Assembly: GCA_021838785.1 (NCBI GenBank)
Contig: JAKCCV010000006.1
Span: 62,001-126,000, forward strand
Direction: 5' to 3'
From: Acidobacteriota bacterium
GTDB taxonomy: Bacteria > Acidobacteriota > Terriglobia > UBA7540
Length of the DNA stretch: 64,000 nucleotides
Both the position numbers and the translations under genes were made by a program. The notes under the pieces are model-generated. The model was not told the DNA's origin and did not search any database. It saw only the letters and a program-made list of their open reading frames with translations. Shown here one piece after another: positions 37,440 to 44,326 of this stretch. The stretch's first letter is position 1; every line of letters starts with the position of its first letter.

Positions 37440-39794
37440 ATGTGTCCAACTCAAAGATGGATAGCCGTTCTGGCGACTGTCAGCCTTGCGACCGCGTGCG
37501 CCACACTCGCCTTAATCGCAGCCACATCCGCCAAGAAATCCCCCGGCCCGGCTTCCACCGAAATCTTGAAAACGGAGTCCAATCTCGTGCTGGTGGACGC
37601 CATCGTCACGGACAAAAAGGGGCACTACGTAAACAATCTCACCGAAAAGGATTTTCGAGTTTACGACGACGGCAAATTGCAAACCCTGACGAGTTTTTCC
37701 GAAGCCTCGGCCACTGCCGCCTCGGGCGCGCGGCGCTACGTGGTGCTTTTTTTCGACGATTCCACCATTGCCACTTCCGATCAACTGCTGGTGCGGCGGG
37801 CTGCGGCCCAGTTTGTCCAGCGCGAAAGCTCGCCCCATCGGCTCATGGCGGTGGTGGATTTTGCTGGGGTTCTTCACATCGAGCAGAACTTCACCAACAA
37901 CGCCGCGTTGCTGGCGCATGCCGTGCGAAACGTTCAATTCTCCGGTTTTGCGCCTAATGTTAACGCCTCCCAGCCGAATCTCGCGTCGCTCGCCGGGCCT
38001 CGCGGAATGCTCGGGCCCTCGCTCCAGCAAGTTAGTAACGACTTTGCGGCTCGAACCGTATTGCTGAGCATTCGCAGCCTCTGTTTAACGCTGGCGGCCG
38101 TTGCTGGGCGCAAGGCCCTCATTCTGTTTTCGGCAGGATTCCCCTTAAACTCAGAGCGCGAAGCCGAGCTGAGCGCCACCATTGATGCCGCCAACAAGGC
38201 GAACGTCGCCATTTATCCCGTGGATGTGCGTGGTCTCACCAACCTTCCTGCCAATCCCTTTCCAAACGTTAATCCAACGCCGGGCTTTCCTCCCGGCGCC
38301 CGACTCGAACCGCCCCCATTTCCGCACGAGCCGTTCTTGCTGGCCGACCTGAGCCCGGTGGCGTTTGCGGCGGGGCAGCGGGGCTCCGGGGCAGGGTCTC
38401 CCGCCCCGAGTGGTCCAAGCGGCGGCCGCGGCGGAGCACCCAGCCCCGGCGGATCAGGAACGGGCACCGGTCCGGGGACGGGAAACGTGGGAACAGGCGG
38501 GACGACCGGCTCGACCGGCGGATTGGGCCGTGGCAATCCCGGCTCAGTGCCGGGCTTCGGCGGGCGGGGCGGGGGAATGCCCGGCAACGGCAACTTCAAC
38601 TCCCCCGGTTTCTACAACAACAATATGAATCAAATGCCGCCCATTATTCCGCCGATGATTCAGTCCATGGCCACCAATCAGCAGGTGCTCTACGCGCTGG
38701 CTGAAGGCACCGGCGGCTTCGCGATTACCAACACCAGCGATTTCCTCTCGGGCTTGATGAGAATTTCCAAGGACCTCAATCACTATTACGTGCTCGGCTA
38801 CGTGCCGCCAAACCGCATTCACGACGGGAGCTATCACCGGATTCGCGTCAAAGTGGACCGCCGAGGACTCACGGTGCGAGCGCGCAACGGCTACTATGAC
38901 ACCAAAAGTCCGGACATGCTGGCGGGAAAACCCGAGGGGCAACTTCTCCAAGCCCTCGCTTCCAGCCCCAAGCCCGGAACCATTTTCGCTGCTATGACCG
39001 ATCCTTATTTCTACACGGCGCCCGGCGTGGCGCGCGTGAACGTCTCACTTCAGATTCCGGCCAAGCCGCTTCATTTTCGCAAGGAAAAAGGCCGGTTCCA
39101 CTACGAGGTGAACGTTTTAGGCCTGGCCTATCGCGCGGGCGGAGCGGTGGCAGCTCGCTTCAGCGACACGGATGAGGGCAGCCTCGATAAGCAGCAAGAG
39201 AAGCAGCTCCTCAAAGGCGCATTCCATTACCAAAATTCTTTTGATATCGCGCCCGGAGCCTATAAATTGGTGGTCGTGCTGAGCACCGGCAGAAAGCAAT
39301 TCGCCAAGTGCGAATCGTCTCTGCTGGTTCGGCCTTACAGCGGAAATCAGTTTGCTATCAGCGCCATCGCCCTCAGCCATACGTTCCGTCCCATCTCCGA
39401 GTTGACAGCCAGCCTGGACGAAGAACTCATCAACGAACGCATGCCGCTGGTCTCGCGCGGCATCGAAGTCACCCCCTCGGCCAGCAACCGCTTTAACCCG
39501 AAGGAGGAGGTCGGATTTTACGTCGAGGTTTACGACCCGGATTTACAAACCATCCTTCCGCCGGAAGTTGGCGTCCTCTACACTATCTACAACCGGAAGA
39601 GCGGCCAACTGGCGTACTCATCCGACACCATTCCGGTCAATGTTTTCGCAGAGCCGGGCAATCCCATCATTCCCTCGCTCATCCGGCTGCAAACCCGGGA
39701 GCTTCCGCCCGGCAGCTACCGGCTGGACGTGCAGGCCAGGGATTCTGATGGCCATATCAGCCCCGTCGAGAAAGCGCGCTTCAGCATCGAATGA
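37440..39794 (+). CDS. Secreted VWFA-related domain protein with Gly/Pro-rich linker
   Basis: 784-aa exported protein with a signal peptide (MCPTQRWIAVLATVSLAT, then ACATLALIAATSA). It has the hallmark ESNLVLVDAIVTDKKGHYV/NLTEKDFRVYDDGKLQTL and a VWA-like domain (RYVVLFFDDSTIATS, KALILFSAGFPL, IYPVDVRGL). The domain is interrupted at about residues 315-400 by a low-complexity Gly/Pro/Ser/Asn segment (GPSGGRGGAPSPGGSG, NFNSPGFYNNN) before LAEGTGGFAITNTSDF and YVLGYVPPNRIHDGSY. A beta-rich C-terminal region of about 300 residues follows. ATG 37440 has AAGGAG 8 bases upstream. It overlaps mutY by 4 bases. Confidence 0.87.
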   Translation: MCPTQRWIAVLATVSLATACATLALIAATSAKKSPGPASTEILKTESNLVLVDAIVTDKKGHYVNNLTEKDFRVYDDGKLQTLTSFSEASATAASGARRYVVLFFDDSTIATSDQLLVRRAAAQFVQRESSPHRLMAVVDFAGVLHIEQNFTNNAALLAHAVRNVQFSGFAPNVNASQPNLASLAGPRGMLGPSLQQVSNDFAARTVLLSIRSLCLTLAAVAGRKALILFSAGFPLNSEREAELSATIDAANKANVAIYPVDVRGLTNLPANPFPNVNPTPGFPPGARLEPPPFPHEPFLLADLSPVAFAAGQRGSGAGSPAPSGPSGGRGGAPSPGGSGTGTGPGTGNVGTGGTTGSTGGLGRGNPGSVPGFGGRGGGMPGNGNFNSPGFYNNNMNQMPPIIPPMIQSMATNQQVLYALAEGTGGFAITNTSDFLSGLMRISKDLNHYYVLGYVPPNRIHDGSYHRIRVKVDRRGLTVRARNGYYDTKSPDMLAGKPEGQLLQALASSPKPGTIFAAMTDPYFYTAPGVARVNVSLQIPAKPLHFRKEKGRFHYEVNVLGLAYRAGGAVAARFSDTDEGSLDKQQEKQLLKGAFHYQNSFDIAPGAYKLVVVLSTGRKQFAKCESSLLVRPYSGNQFAISAIALSHTFRPISELTASLDEELINERMPLVSRGIEVTPSASNRFNPKEEVGFYVEVYDPDLQTILPPEVGVLYTIYNRKSGQLAYSSDTIPVNVFAEPGNPIIPSLIRLQTRELPPGSYRLDVQARDSDGHISPVEKARFSIE

Positions 39795-40957
39795 TCGCCT
39801 CGCACGACGGACGACCGCCTCGGAAGCCCCTATCGCCACGGGCGAAGGCTCTTTCTTCTCGACAAGTGAAGGCCATGCGGCGCAGTCTGCTTCGCTGGTT
39901 TCGGAAAAACGCCCGGCCTTTACCCTGGCGCGAGTCAAATGACTTTTACCACGTTTGGCTTTCAGAAATCATGCTGCAACAGACTCAGGTAGAGACGGTC
40001 ATTCCTTATTTCCGCCGGTTTATCCGCGCCTTCCCCAACCTTCAAGCGCTCGCGGAGGCTCCGCTTGAGCAGGTTCTCGAGCATTGGTCGGGTCTCGGCT
40101 ACTACCGCCGCGCGCGTCATCTGCACCAGGCGGCGCAAATCATCGTGGCAGAGTGGGGTGGACAGTTTCCGAGGGATTGGAAGTCAGTTCGAGCCTTACC
40201 CGGCGTCGGTGACTACACGGCGCGAGCTATCCTGAGCATCGCCGACAATCAGCCTTACGCCGTCCTGGAGGGTAACGTGGCCCGCGTGATGGCGCGCCTG
40301 CTGGCGCTTCGGGGAAACATTCGCCGCGCGCATTTTCGCCAGACCGTCGAGCGGCAAGCCCAAGCTTTGCTCTCTCGGTGGCACCCGGGCGAATTCAATC
40401 AGGCTGTCATGGAAATCGGGCAGACGCTTTGCCGTTTGCGTGAGCCCCGATGCCCGCAATGCCCTTTGCGGCGCTGGTGCCGCGCTCGGCGGCTCGGCCA
40501 GGCTGAGGCGTTCCCCGAGCCGTCGCCCCGCCGCCCGACCGTGAGACGCCACTTGGCTCTCGCCATCATCCCGCAGGACGGTCGCCTCCTCGTGGTGAAG
40601 GGACTCGACGAAGGCTTGACGCCGGACCTCTGGAACTTCCCTTCGGCGTTCGGCTCCTCGCCCCAGCAAGCTCTCCGCGCCCTTCGCCGGAAGATCGGTT
40701 CTGTAACCAACGCCCGGCTTCCTTTGTCTCAACCCGTGGCCGAGTTTCGCCACAACATCACTTACCGATCCATTAGGGCTCGGGTGTATCTGGCGAAGGC
40801 CGAGGTGCGTTCTCCTGCGCGCCGCGCATCTCAACATGACGCTGCCGCCGACACTCGCTGGCTCACTCTGGATCAGCTTCGCCGCGCCGCGCTCGCTCAG
40901 GTGGCCCGCAAAGCCATCCAATGCCTTCGAGATTCGCCCGCCACGAACCTTGCCTAA
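39791..40957 (+). CDS. mutY: Adenine DNA glycosylase MutY
   Basis: 388-aa base-excision repair enzyme that removes adenine mispaired with 8-oxoguanine. Motifs: LPWRESNDFYHVWLSEIMLQQTQV given as LPWRESNDFYHVW and SEIMLQQTQV with the catalytic Glu, helix-hairpin-helix LPGVGDYTARAILSIAD followed by AVLEGNVARV with the catalytic-loop region, and the iron-sulfur ligands in CRLREPRCPQCPLRRWC (Cx6Cx2Cx5C). A NUDIX-like 8-oxoG recognition domain follows (about 235-370). The start ATG overlaps the upstream VWFA stop (ATGA), an odd partner for a repair gene. The stop is back-to-back with the convergent CxC-protein gene (TAA immediately followed by TTA). Confidence 0.94.
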   Translation: MIASHDGRPPRKPLSPRAKALSSRQVKAMRRSLLRWFRKNARPLPWRESNDFYHVWLSEIMLQQTQVETVIPYFRRFIRAFPNLQALAEAPLEQVLEHWSGLGYYRRARHLHQAAQIIVAEWGGQFPRDWKSVRALPGVGDYTARAILSIADNQPYAVLEGNVARVMARLLALRGNIRRAHFRQTVERQAQALLSRWHPGEFNQAVMEIGQTLCRLREPRCPQCPLRRWCRARRLGQAEAFPEPSPRRPTVRRHLALAIIPQDGRLLVVKGLDEGLTPDLWNFPSAFGSSPQQALRALRRKIGSVTNARLPLSQPVAEFRHNITYRSIRARVYLAKAEVRSPARRASQHDAAADTRWLTLDQLRRAALAQVARKAIQCLRDSPATNLA

Positions 40958-41263
40958 TTACATCTTCATTTTGGCTGACCCGCCCCGCAGGGCTTTGCGG
41001 TTGGCGCGAGCCCACGCGCTATCTCTGCGCACGGCCTTCATCTCCGGAGACTTCATTCCGCAAGCGCAATGCCCCTCCATGTTGGCTTCTGTCTTGCAGG
41101 GACACGATTTCGTCTTCATGCAACTGCACACATAAACCGTCCGGCTGTTCATCTTCATCTCTTTCGCCGGGCGGCCCTTGGCGGCGGCACTAAAGCTGAA
41201 GGGTAAAATCAGCGCGGCGGCAAGCACCAGCACAGCGGTGGTCATTCTTTTGCTCATCCTCAT
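40958..41263 (-). CDS. Small exported protein with three CxC motifs, mer-operon linked
   Basis: 101-aa protein not recognised as a named family. ATG 41263 follows an excellent AAGGAGA site. The signal peptide is MRMSKRMTTAVLVLAAALIL with cleavage near SAAA-KG, so the mature part should be periplasmic. The mature 73 residues contain six cysteines in three CxC pairs: C46-x-C48, C54-x-C56 and C66-x-C68 (VCSCMKTKSCPCK and HCACGMKSPEM), with several Met, Lys and one His. The spacing suggests a metallothionein-like or metal-chaperone site. It lies 83 bases downstream of merA on the same strand, with no terminator seen between, and probably belongs to the mercury operon. Metal binding is inference. 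Confidence 0.75.
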   Translation of the reverse strand: MRMSKRMTTAVLVLAAALILPFSFSAAAKGRPAKEMKMNSRTVYVCSCMKTKSCPCKTEANMEGHCACGMKSPEMKAVRRDSAWARANRKALRGGSAKMKM

Positions 41264-41346
41264 CACTATCTCCTTCTCATGGGATTTTGATTTCACGCAT
41301 GGCTTCTGTCTGTTCGATGGTGAGCGTTCGGGCAGCGCACAGAAAT

Positions 41347-42768
41347 TCACGCCGCGCAGCAACTCAACTTGGTCACATCCTTCTGGAAAGAGATGGCGGC
41401 TATCTTGAACGCCTCGGCCATCGTGGGATAAACGAAGACCGTCCGAATCACGTCGCCCACCGTCATCTTGCTCTGAATCGCCAGGACTCCCAGGTGGATC
41501 AAGTCGGGAGCTTCCGGCCCAAGGATATGAACGCCCAGAATGGTGTAATCTTTCGCATCCACGACCATCTTGACGAGCCCGCGCGTGTCGCGAATGGCGC
41601 CGGCTTTGGGCACATGCTCAAAGGGGACGACGGTGGTCAGTACTTTCCTGCCACTCGCCCGCGCCACGCTCTCCTTCATGCCCACGCCGGCTACTCCGGG
41701 ATCGGTGAAGATGGCGTGCGGCACGGCGTCAAATGTCATTTTGTGGTGCGCCTTCAAGAGGGCGTTTTCCGCCGCCAAGCCGCCTTCATAAGCCGCCACC
41801 GTGACCAGCATCATCTGACCTGTCACATCCCCCGCCGCCCAAACGTGCCCCAGGTTCGTGCGAAGTTCTTCGTCCACCGCGATGGCGCCGTGCCCACTGC
41901 GCGTCACCCCGATCTTTTCCAGACCTAAATCGTCAGTGTTCGGCCGCAGCCCCGTCGCCACCAAAAGTTCGTCGCAGGAAAACTCTGTCGGCTTGCCGTC
42001 AATCTCCGCCAACACTTTCTTCAGCGTCAAGTGATTCTCAACCTTGCGAACCGAAGCGCCGGTATGGATCTCAATGCCTTCCTCCGAAAGGTACTTCTTC
42101 AACGCTTCGGAGATTTCCGGCTCTTCCATGGGGGCGATGCGCGGCAAAGCTTCGAGGATCGTCACCTTGGTCCCGAATCGCGCGTACATCTGCCCAATTT
42201 CAAGCCCGATGGCCCCGCCGCCAATGATGACCATTCGAGCGGGCAGCTTGTTCAAGTCGAGCGATTCCTTGTAAGTGATATATCCGCTCTCCTTGAGGCC
42301 AGGGATCGAAGGCGCCACCGGTGAAGCGCCTGTGGCAATAATGAAGTGCTCGGCACTCACCTGCTTGCCGTCAACCTTGACGCTGTGATCATCCACAAAC
42401 CGGGCGCGATGCGGAATGTATTGAATCGCGGGAAAAGCCTGAAGCACATCCAGATATTTCTGCTTGCGCATCTCCGCGACCAAGGCGTCCTTTTGCGCGA
42501 TGACTTCGTGAAAGTTGATCCCCTCCGAGCCACGCGGCAACCCTGGGAAAGAATTGCGCCTGTAAAGGTGGTAACGCTCGGCGGCGTAAAGAAGATTCTT
42601 GGTGGGCAGGCAGCCTCGGTTCAAGCACGTGCCGCCGATGACGCCGCTCTCGGCCACGCCCACCTTCGCGCCGGACTCCGCCGCGCGAATCGCCGCCGCA
42701 AAGGCGGCCGACCCTCCGCCAATCACCATCAGATCCAAATCCCGTTTCGAGCCGCTGAATAATGACAT
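41347..42768 (-). CDS. merA: Mercuric reductase MerA (short form)
   Basis: 473-aa FAD/NAD(P)H disulfide oxidoreductase expected to reduce Hg(II) to Hg(0) in the cytoplasm. FAD motif LMVIGGGSAAFAAAIRA, redox-active GGTCLNRGCLPTKN (CxxxxC), NAD-binding MVIIGGGAIGLEIGQMYARF, and a second FAD motif VWAAGDVTG. The C-terminus KDVTKLSCCAA carries the vicinal Cys pair diagnostic of MerA among related reductases. The N-terminal HMA domain of Tn-type MerA is absent, as in many chromosomal versions. AAGGAG sits just upstream of ATG 42768. It follows merTP by 48 bases. Confidence 0.93.
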   Translation of the reverse strand: MSLFSGSKRDLDLMVIGGGSAAFAAAIRAAESGAKVGVAESGVIGGTCLNRGCLPTKNLLYAAERYHLYRRNSFPGLPRGSEGINFHEVIAQKDALVAEMRKQKYLDVLQAFPAIQYIPHRARFVDDHSVKVDGKQVSAEHFIIATGASPVAPSIPGLKESGYITYKESLDLNKLPARMVIIGGGAIGLEIGQMYARFGTKVTILEALPRIAPMEEPEISEALKKYLSEEGIEIHTGASVRKVENHLTLKKVLAEIDGKPTEFSCDELLVATGLRPNTDDLGLEKIGVTRSGHGAIAVDEELRTNLGHVWAAGDVTGQMMLVTVAAYEGGLAAENALLKAHHKMTFDAVPHAIFTDPGVAGVGMKESVARASGRKVLTTVVPFEHVPKAGAIRDTRGLVKMVVDAKDYTILGVHILGPEAPDLIHLGVLAIQSKMTVGDVIRTVFVYPTMAEAFKIAAISFQKDVTKLSCCAA

Positions 42769-42816: not shown

Positions 42817-43389
42817 TTACGGCTTCGGCAGGCTGGCCTTGTAGCCGGTGGAATTGATAGCCGCCACCAGTTGCTCCGGCTTCACCTGATGAGGATCGTA
42901 GTTCACGCTGACCTGCCCGTGAGTGACGTCCACGTTGACCTGATGCACACCCGCAAGCTGATGCAGGCGCGCCTTGATCGGCAGCGCGCACATGGCGCAG
43001 TCCATTCCTGAAACCGGCAGCGTGATAGTCTTTAGCGATGCGGTCGTGACCGCCGGAGTCGCCGCGACGCTCGCCTGCCGCGCTACCAGCGGATAAACGC
43101 TGAAGCCTAAGACCACGACGATTAGGCCCGTGGCGAAGGCCAGAATAGCCCGGGTCGTTCCCTCATGGCGCATTTGCGCCGCGAGAGCGTGCAGCTTCCG
43201 TTTCTCCCGCCCGTATTGCCACCAAGCGGCCGCCACGCCAACCACGCCGAGGCCGATAAACCACCAGTGGTAAGCGGAGAAAAAGCCTCCGGCGAATCCA
43301 AACACCCCGAACACCGCCAGCAGCGCCGGTCCCACACAGCAGACCGACCCCAGCAGCGCCGAAATTAAACCTAAGTTTTTCGATTGCAT
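42817..43389 (-). CDS. MerT-MerP fusion (mercuric ion transporter with HMA domain)
   Basis: 190-aa inner-membrane protein. The N-terminal half resembles MerT: TM1 contains the Cys-Cys pair (C17-C18 in LLGSVCCVGPALLAVFG), then TM2 (HWWFIGLGVVGVAAAWW) and TM3 (AILAFATGLIVVVLGFSVYPL). The C-terminal half is a heavy-metal-associated domain (about 120-187) with GMDCAMCALPIK as the metal site, equivalent to periplasmic MerP. Fusions of this kind pass Hg(II) from the HMA domain to the membrane cysteines and on to MerA. ATG 43389 is preferred over 43410 because AAGGAGGA precedes it. Confidence 0.88.
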   Translation of the reverse strand: MQSKNLGLISALLGSVCCVGPALLAVFGVFGFAGGFFSAYHWWFIGLGVVGVAAAWWQYGREKRKLHALAAQMRHEGTTRAILAFATGLIVVVLGFSVYPLVARQASVAATPAVTTASLKTITLPVSGMDCAMCALPIKARLHQLAGVHQVNVDVTHGQVSVNYDPHQVKPEQLVAAINSTGYKASLPKP

Positions 43390-43489
43390 CGTTTCCTCCT
43401 TATTGTCCATGGGCGATTGACGCCTTATGCCCGAACCTCAACCGCGCGTCGCTCCTCGGAAGTCGCCCCGGGAACAGCGCGGACATCGG

Positions 43490-43831
43490 CTAGCGATTTG
43501 CGGCACGAACGTCATGGCCATTGCGAGCCTCTTGGATTGCTTGCTCCAGCAGTTCGCGCGGCGGTACGCCCGCCAGCCGGTTCCCCTGCCGATACACCCG
43601 GCACTTCAACCCGTAGTCGGTGCTCGAACGCGCTGCGGGATCAATATCCTCTCCATTCACCCGAATCGTGGGCGAGCCGAGGAACCGCGACCGCAGGGCT
43701 TCTTCCTCCGTTCGTATGTCCCGCAACTCGACCTCAGCCGCGATGTTGGCGGTGCGAGTGACTTCCTCGATTTGCTTGAGGGCGCCTTGGTAGTTTGGGC
43801 AATCCGAAAAATACAAGAGTTCAATTTTCAT
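43490..43831 (-). CDS. Thioredoxin-fold small protein of mer operons
   Basis: 113-aa cytoplasmic protein starting immediately after the merR stop, with its ribosome site inside the end of merR. The first strand and loop IELLYFSDCPNYQGAL is thioredoxin-like with a single Cys (DCPN), and a second Cys occurs in GLKCRVYRQGN; SPTIRVNGEDIDP is the cis-Pro region. Such proteins sit in many mer loci and are sometimes labelled thioredoxin family or mis-labelled as alkylmercury lyase. MerB is ruled out because its catalytic Cys-Cys-Asp arrangement and length are absent. A thiol carrier role for Hg is inference. Confidence 0.78.
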   Translation of the reverse strand: MKIELLYFSDCPNYQGALKQIEEVTRTANIAAEVELRDIRTEEEALRSRFLGSPTIRVNGEDIDPAARSSTDYGLKCRVYRQGNRLAGVPPRELLEQAIQEARNGHDVRAANR

Positions 43832-44272
43832 TTAATCCTCCTCATTTCCATTCCTTCGACCCAGCTCTTCAAGCACCGGGCAAGACCTTTCGGCGCGGCC
43901 AGGGTTTCGCCGAAGATCCCGGTTGCACTTGCGAAGCGCCGCTTGGAGTTCCTGTTCCAGTTGTTCAAGCTCGGAGAGCTTGGCGCGCACGGCTCGGAGC
44001 TTTTGAGCCAGCAGGTCGCGCACGTGAGAGCATCCGGGCGAATTCGTGCGACGCAAGACCAACAGGTCTCGGATTTCCGACAGCGAAAATCCGAGATTTT
44101 GCGCTTCACGGATAAACCTCAAGTCACGAACCGTGTCCGGACCGAATAGCCGGAAACCGCCCTCACTGCGCACGGGCGGCCTCAACAATCCCTGCCGCTC
44201 ATAAAAGCGAATGGCGTGGATGCCCAGCCCGGTTCGCTCGGCCACTTTCCCGATTTGCCATCCCTGAGTCAT
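43832..44272 (-). CDS. merR: MerR family metalloregulator, mercury-type
   Basis: 146-aa regulator. Winged helix at the N-terminus (IGKVAERTGLGIHAIRFYERQGLL), coiled-coil dimer helix (about 85-115), and a metal-binding tail. Cysteines at 81 (NSPGCSH), 116 (LRKCNRD) and 131 (ERSCPVLEEL) correspond to the Cys82/Cys117/Cys126 triad of Tn501 MerR, but the loop between the last two is 14 residues rather than 8. ATG 44272 is preceded by AAGGAGG; the GTG at 44290 lies too close to the promoter. It is first in its own operon, so it controls itself and the downstream genes from the 44295-44326 promoter. Confidence 0.9.
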   Translation of the reverse strand: MTQGWQIGKVAERTGLGIHAIRFYERQGLLRPPVRSEGGFRLFGPDTVRDLRFIREAQNLGFSLSEIRDLLVLRRTNSPGCSHVRDLLAQKLRAVRAKLSELEQLEQELQAALRKCNRDLRRNPGRAERSCPVLEELGRRNGNEED

Positions 44273-44294
44273 TGCGCCTCCTTCGCACACTTAT

Positions 44295-44326
44295 ATGATG
44301 CACTCTAGATATAACTCTAGAGTCAA
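44295..44326 (-). promoter_or_regulatory. MerR-family promoter/operator with 20-bp spacer
   Basis: On the minus strand: -35 TTGACT (44326-44321), a 20-base spacer, -10 CATCAT (44300-44295). The spacer is filled by a perfect dyad, ACTCTAGA (44302-44309 complement arm) and TCTAGAGT (44316-44323), separated by 6 bases. The over-long spacer and 8-6-8 dyad match the geometry of mer and znt promoters, which MerR-type activators untwist when metal binds. The predicted start is about 16 bases before the merR ATG. Confidence 0.8.

Follow-up and report, generated by a model that had tools for sequence, protein, structure and literature searches.

We conclude that cxc, which occupies positions 40958 to 41263 on the minus strand of the window (the whole 64,000-nucleotide stretch of acidobacterial DNA that was analysed), is a real, unnamed gene that is accessory to one acidobacterial lineage of mer operons. 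Translation of this open reading frame gives a product of 101 aa, MRMSKRMTTAVLVLAAALILPFSFSAAAKGRPAKEMKMNSRTVYVCSCMKTKSCPCKTEANMEGHCACGMKSPEMKAVRRDSAWARANRKALRGGSAKMKM followed by the stop codon, with three CxC pairs formed by Cys 46, 48, 54, 56, 66 and 68; the spacing C-x-C-x5-C-x-C-x9-C-x-C that the initial annotation had given is right. The N terminus consists of a basic n-region, a long hydrophobic stretch and A-A-A before K-G, with no lipobox Cys, and it agrees with the signal peptide claimed earlier, as judged from the sequence itself and from the hydrophobic N termini of homologues. This stretch is the only hydrophobic one in the product and contains no Cys, and we predict that the protein is exported. 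If cleaved after AAA, the mature protein would have 73 aa and a net charge of about +13, and its 6 Cys, 8 Met and 11 Lys bear out the richness in Met and Lys noted previously. The ribosome-binding site, AAGGAG at 41270 to 41275 (minus strand), lies 6 nt upstream of the ATG, in line with the strong site that had been described, and is identical in G002, a genome of the same genus. Between the window gene and that of G002, dN/dS in the core is about 0.11, estimated from only nine substitutions, a value that points to purifying selection on the core. Because dN/dS is this low and the arrangement is preserved in 34 distinct homologous cores, the cxc pattern exceeds what chance would produce.

The locus is a mer operon; it has a true merA, a MerR-family regulator and a dyad promoter with a long spacer. 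Most of what is known of mer operons comes from Proteobacteria, Actinobacteria and Firmicutes. All five genes lie on one strand in the order merR, DF (thioredoxin-like), merTP, merA and cxc, so that cxc is the last. The mercuric reductase gene merA (41347 to 42768, minus strand) scored 536.3 bits against the TIGR02053 cut-off of 454.45; as claimed, cxc follows it on the same strand, at the operon end. The reductase has the redox site GTCLNRGC and a C-terminal CC, and a profile search found no HMA match that would represent an N-terminal HMA (NmerA) domain. Upstream of merA, the merTP-like gene (42817 to 43410, minus strand) encodes a fusion of a MerT-like membrane part with a C-terminal HMA (MerP-like) domain; it scored 59 bits with PF00403, was subthreshold with PF02411, and reached 98 bits with NF033556, under the cut-off of 180. 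The merR-like gene (43832 to 44272, minus strand) matched PF09278 and PF13411 and scored 103 bits with TIGR02051, under the cut-off of 150.85. As both genes score under the NCBI equivalog cut-offs, the names merTP and merR rest on family matches and context. Between them lies a gene for the Cys form of a thioredoxin-like, DF-family (seleno)protein homologue (43490 to 43831, minus strand; NF049942, 120.7 bits against a cut-off of 70); a relative also occurs after merR in the mer loci of two other genomes, G741 and G671. No free MerP gene was found in the window operon, where the sole HMA domain is that of the MerTP fusion. The operon is bounded by a convergent mutY gene (39791 to 40957, plus strand; TIGR01084, 304.6 bits), whose stop codon abuts that of cxc.

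The MerR-type promoter/operator, read from the sequence at 44295 to 44326 (minus strand) 5' of merR, consists of TTGACT at 44326 to 44321, a 20-bp spacer and a −10-like CATCAT at 44300 to 44295, with the dyad ACTCTAGAGTTATATCTAGAGT at 44323 to 44302. The same layout precedes merR in G012 and G003. Given the promoter position and the alignment with the G003 start, the likely start of merR is the ATG at 44272 and not the listed GTG at 44290, which is too close to the −10 element. The initial annotation had held that a separate, metal-independent promoter in the merA-cxc gap (41264 to 41346, minus strand) would count against its reading. A consensus scan of this 83-bp gap, which is mostly conserved in G002, found no promoter-like site and no minus-strand terminator; this is weak evidence, because the same scan over the whole operon region returned zero promoters and thus also overlooked the long-spacer mer promoter, which falls outside its spacing rule. 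We infer that cxc sits behind a single MerR-type promoter and hence predict that it is co-induced with the operon by Hg(II).

Searches of Pfam and NCBIfam with the cxc product gave no family match. Searches of PDB sequences with full, core and repeat profiles found no relatives, a single-sequence search of the PDB gave chance matches only, and there was no match in a plasmid collection; literature searches turned up no account of a protein of this kind. The product belongs to an unnamed family of Terriglobia (Acidobacteriota). Homologues occur in 14 of 39 genomes from the window's GTDB family, and 23 of 399 genomes sampled from its class have them. The named genome set held 30 homologous loci, 26 of them from Acidobacteriota and four encoding more distant Desulfuromonadales/Geobacter proteins. 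Six Cys and the C-terminal motif (M/L)(K/Q)xV-x5-WAxxNRxxL are shared by 34 distinct cores, which were collected with a pattern that itself required these Cys and motif residues; in alignments A2 and A6 the six Cys and W, A, N and R were invariant among intact members. An AlphaFold2 model of the product (mean pLDDT 62.7, core about 66 to 82) has two strands and a helix, and a Foldseek search with it found no PDB neighbour. The predicted C-terminal helix, residues 83 to 99 of this low-to-moderate-confidence model, carries the conserved WAxxNR. The window's own genome has a second cxc copy (L031, contig C36) beside response-regulator-like genes and not beside metal genes. A frameshifted and probably dead CxC gene occurs in G013 (C321:873-1117; L047), which has an intact copy elsewhere.

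The initial annotation had proposed that homologues and their neighbourhoods be searched, and the outcome bore out its reading only in part. Most of the family lies away from metal genes, which is the outcome that the annotation itself had named as refuting: merA adjoins only three of the 34 distinct cores, and a regulator of the MocR type (GntR plus aminotransferase domains) is the gene most often found nearby, lying no more than 360 bp from the core, in most cases divergently, at 16 of 30 non-mer loci. A DoxX-like membrane protein is encoded near nine of these 30 loci, and none of the 30 has a true mer gene. From the MocR-type context and the lack of true mer genes at these loci we conclude that this is not a mercury family, and since most members lie away from metal genes, mercury alone does not explain the conservation of the Cys. 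The mercury link held for one clade. Copies of cxc adjacent to mer genes were found in the window genome, in G002 (89% identical to the window protein), in G012, a member of a different genus (66%), and in decayed form in G003. In a tree of full-length proteins these copies form one clade (support 95/94, or 97/97 when the decayed copy is left out), which has a Met-rich linker and tail of its own, and the non-mer paralogues that these genomes carry fall outside it; a tree of the 53-column core did not resolve the clade (AU p 0.10).

The presence of cxc in mer loci coincides with that of merA within the GTDB family, where MerA scored above its cut-off in three of 39 genomes (G000, G002 and G012), which are precisely the genomes in which a mer-linked cxc is intact. 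The class sample contained 11 genomes with MerA above the cut-off, and in the remaining eight the mer loci are different and contain no cxc. Therefore mer function in general does not require cxc, which is not a standard component of mer operons; its mer association is a single evolutionary capture seen in two genera. In G012 the mer island comprises merR, DF, merTP, merA, merB (PF03243), a gene for an unnamed exported protein, cxc, a gene for a free HMA protein resembling MerP and one more merA, so that cxc remained in the island despite the separation of merA from cxc by merB and another gene. In G003 the same locus, on contig C20 (L036:4181-5889) and flanked on that contig by mutY on one side and by polygalacturonase-like and SDR genes on the other, is a decaying mer operon. 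Here merR and DF were kept, merTP is gone, and merA is reduced to two fragments (aa 162 to 195 and 324 to 350); in cxc two residues are missing, one of them the first Cys, and a frameshift affects the tail, while the non-mer paralogue of the same genome is intact. This draft genome thus offers one natural case in which cxc lost constraint along with merA. The mutY gene of a further genome, G001, is on a 3.9-kb contig without mer genes, cxc or the other flank of the locus.

The earlier statement that the product is not a named Mer protein agrees with our searches, in which there was no match to MerC, MerE, MerF, MerH, MerP, MerT or other profiles. In addition, it has no transmembrane helices with a vicinal Cys pair as expected of the MerC/E/F/H/T transporters, and neither an HMA match nor a GMTCxxC motif as in MerP, with which it shares the properties of a soluble exported protein encoded in a mer operon. 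Bacterial metallothioneins (PF02069 and MymT, NF052418) are likewise small, with several CxC pairs and likely thiolate metal binding; in contrast to them, the cxc product looks exported and has only 6 Cys in about 73 residues. It matched neither profile up to E = 1, and its relatives gave insignificant matches only (E about 0.1 to 9). A 2021 survey of mer genes recorded MerA in only seven Acidobacteria genomes and did not mention metallothioneins (PMC8261052). With HMBD (PF19335) the product shares a YxC...PGxCxxCG-like frame, but HMBD carries CPM(H/D)P and CxxCGM where cxc has three CxC pairs; there was no profile match, and the direct profile comparison (3.5%) was not significant. Profile comparison, the scores of which are inflated by Cys-rich profiles, aligned Geobacter-type repeats weakly with HMBD (38%) and matched the cxc core to multi-CxC exported proteins with 97.6% probability over 29 columns. 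The Geobacter repeats hint at an origin from HMBD, but the direct comparison does not bear it out. The multi-CxC proteins (L078 to L081 and L083 to L087), which are unnamed, exported, built of two or three CxC/CxC/CxC repeats and found in Geobacter/Desulfuromonadales and other Acidobacteriota, have the exported layout and the YVCxC..C-x-C..GKC-x-CG unit in common with cxc; unlike cxc they are repetitive, have two residues fewer between the first two CxC pairs, and lack a conserved WAxxNR helix. No neighbouring gene of the Geobacter-type loci was recognised as a mer gene.

The explanation that we favour, and hold with moderate confidence, is that cxc encodes a recruited exported thiolate protein that would bind or buffer Hg(II) for MerTP and MerA. 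One branch of the Terriglobia family would have been captured as the last gene of a mer operon and would be induced with it from the promoter ahead of merR; outside the cytoplasm, where we expect the product to reside, probably in the periplasm, its three CxC pairs would probably bind Hg(II) as thiolates, and the bound Hg(II) would be buffered away from other envelope thiols yet still be exchangeable for MerTP, to which it may be handed over for import to MerA and reduction. Two-thiolate coordination is preferred by Hg(II), which travels through MerP, MerT and MerA on paired Cys. An operon without a free MerP and a MerA without an HMA domain leave room for a soluble exported thiol protein. The CxC Cys could, in the oxidising periplasm, be disulfide-bonded instead of metal-loaded, and the searches of Pfam, NCBIfam, the PDB and Foldseek matched the product to no known metal-binding family. 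A serious alternative, although one that we think rather doubtful, is that the product has a general role in the envelope, as a thiol protein or a Zn/Cu-binding protein acting in storage, redox or stress, and is co-expressed with mer without being specific for mercury, the mer copy doing the same job as its non-mer paralogues. The near identity of the core in mer and non-mer copies, the prevalence of MocR-type and DoxX-like contexts, and a Met-rich mature part that would suit Cu(I) as well all fit this alternative, but it does not account for a separate mer clade with its own linker and tail or for decay where merA was lost and the paralogue stayed intact.

Two further readings appear improbable to us. 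According to one, the product is a dedicated Hg(II) chaperone that replaces free MerP and docks through its C-terminal helix on MerTP or another membrane partner, as the conserved WAxxNR helix and the lack of a free merP in the window operon might suggest; however, non-mer members without MerTP nearby show equal conservation of the helix, and cxc coexists with a free MerP-like HMA protein in G012. According to the other, about as unlikely, cxc is a passenger, an ordinary paralogue that landed by chance between merA and mutY and was kept by operon inertia. A single capture and the many mer loci of the class without cxc are what a passenger would leave, but the low dN/dS of the core, the retention of cxc in a rearranged mer island of another genus and its decay together with merA argue against this reading. 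Bufferins (BufA precursors with MNIO) are exported Cys proteins too, some of them near DoxX-like proteins, and the signal peptide, an EGKCxCG-like motif and, for part of the family, the DoxX-like neighbours are reminiscent of bufferin operons, a likeness that serves as a lead. That the cxc product is a bufferin-like RiPP precursor with Cys modified by an MNIO (DUF692) enzyme is nevertheless highly improbable, and we rejected membership in this class, because G012 (97% complete) has two cxc genes but no MNIO (PF05114); the one MNIO of the window's own genome sits on another contig.

Returning to the recruited thiolate protein, we suggest tentatively that the triple-CxC domain with its own helix may constitute a new exported mercury-binding class, whose accessory Mer branch would replace free MerP and NmerA as a soluble thiol carrier. 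Were this true, some mer systems would, through this additional exported thiol protein, have an extracytoplasmic buffer for Hg(II). Beyond the mer loci, the family with its MocR-type context and six invariant Cys is a clear target for the study of envelope thiol or metal functions in Terriglobia. A cluster of a MocR-type regulator, a CxC gene and a gene for a DoxX-like membrane protein recurs in this class (L057, L061, L065, L069, L070, L073, L074 and others). An unnamed exported protein of about 130 aa, with no Pfam match, also recurs in or beside Terriglobia mer loci (L162:2940-3341, L164:2511-2900 and L033:4838-5230); the L162 and L164 proteins share the motif FC(S/G)HMKTGQLCPGNA...YNKAVxxAQKQFL, and that of L033 is, by eye, a diverged relative.
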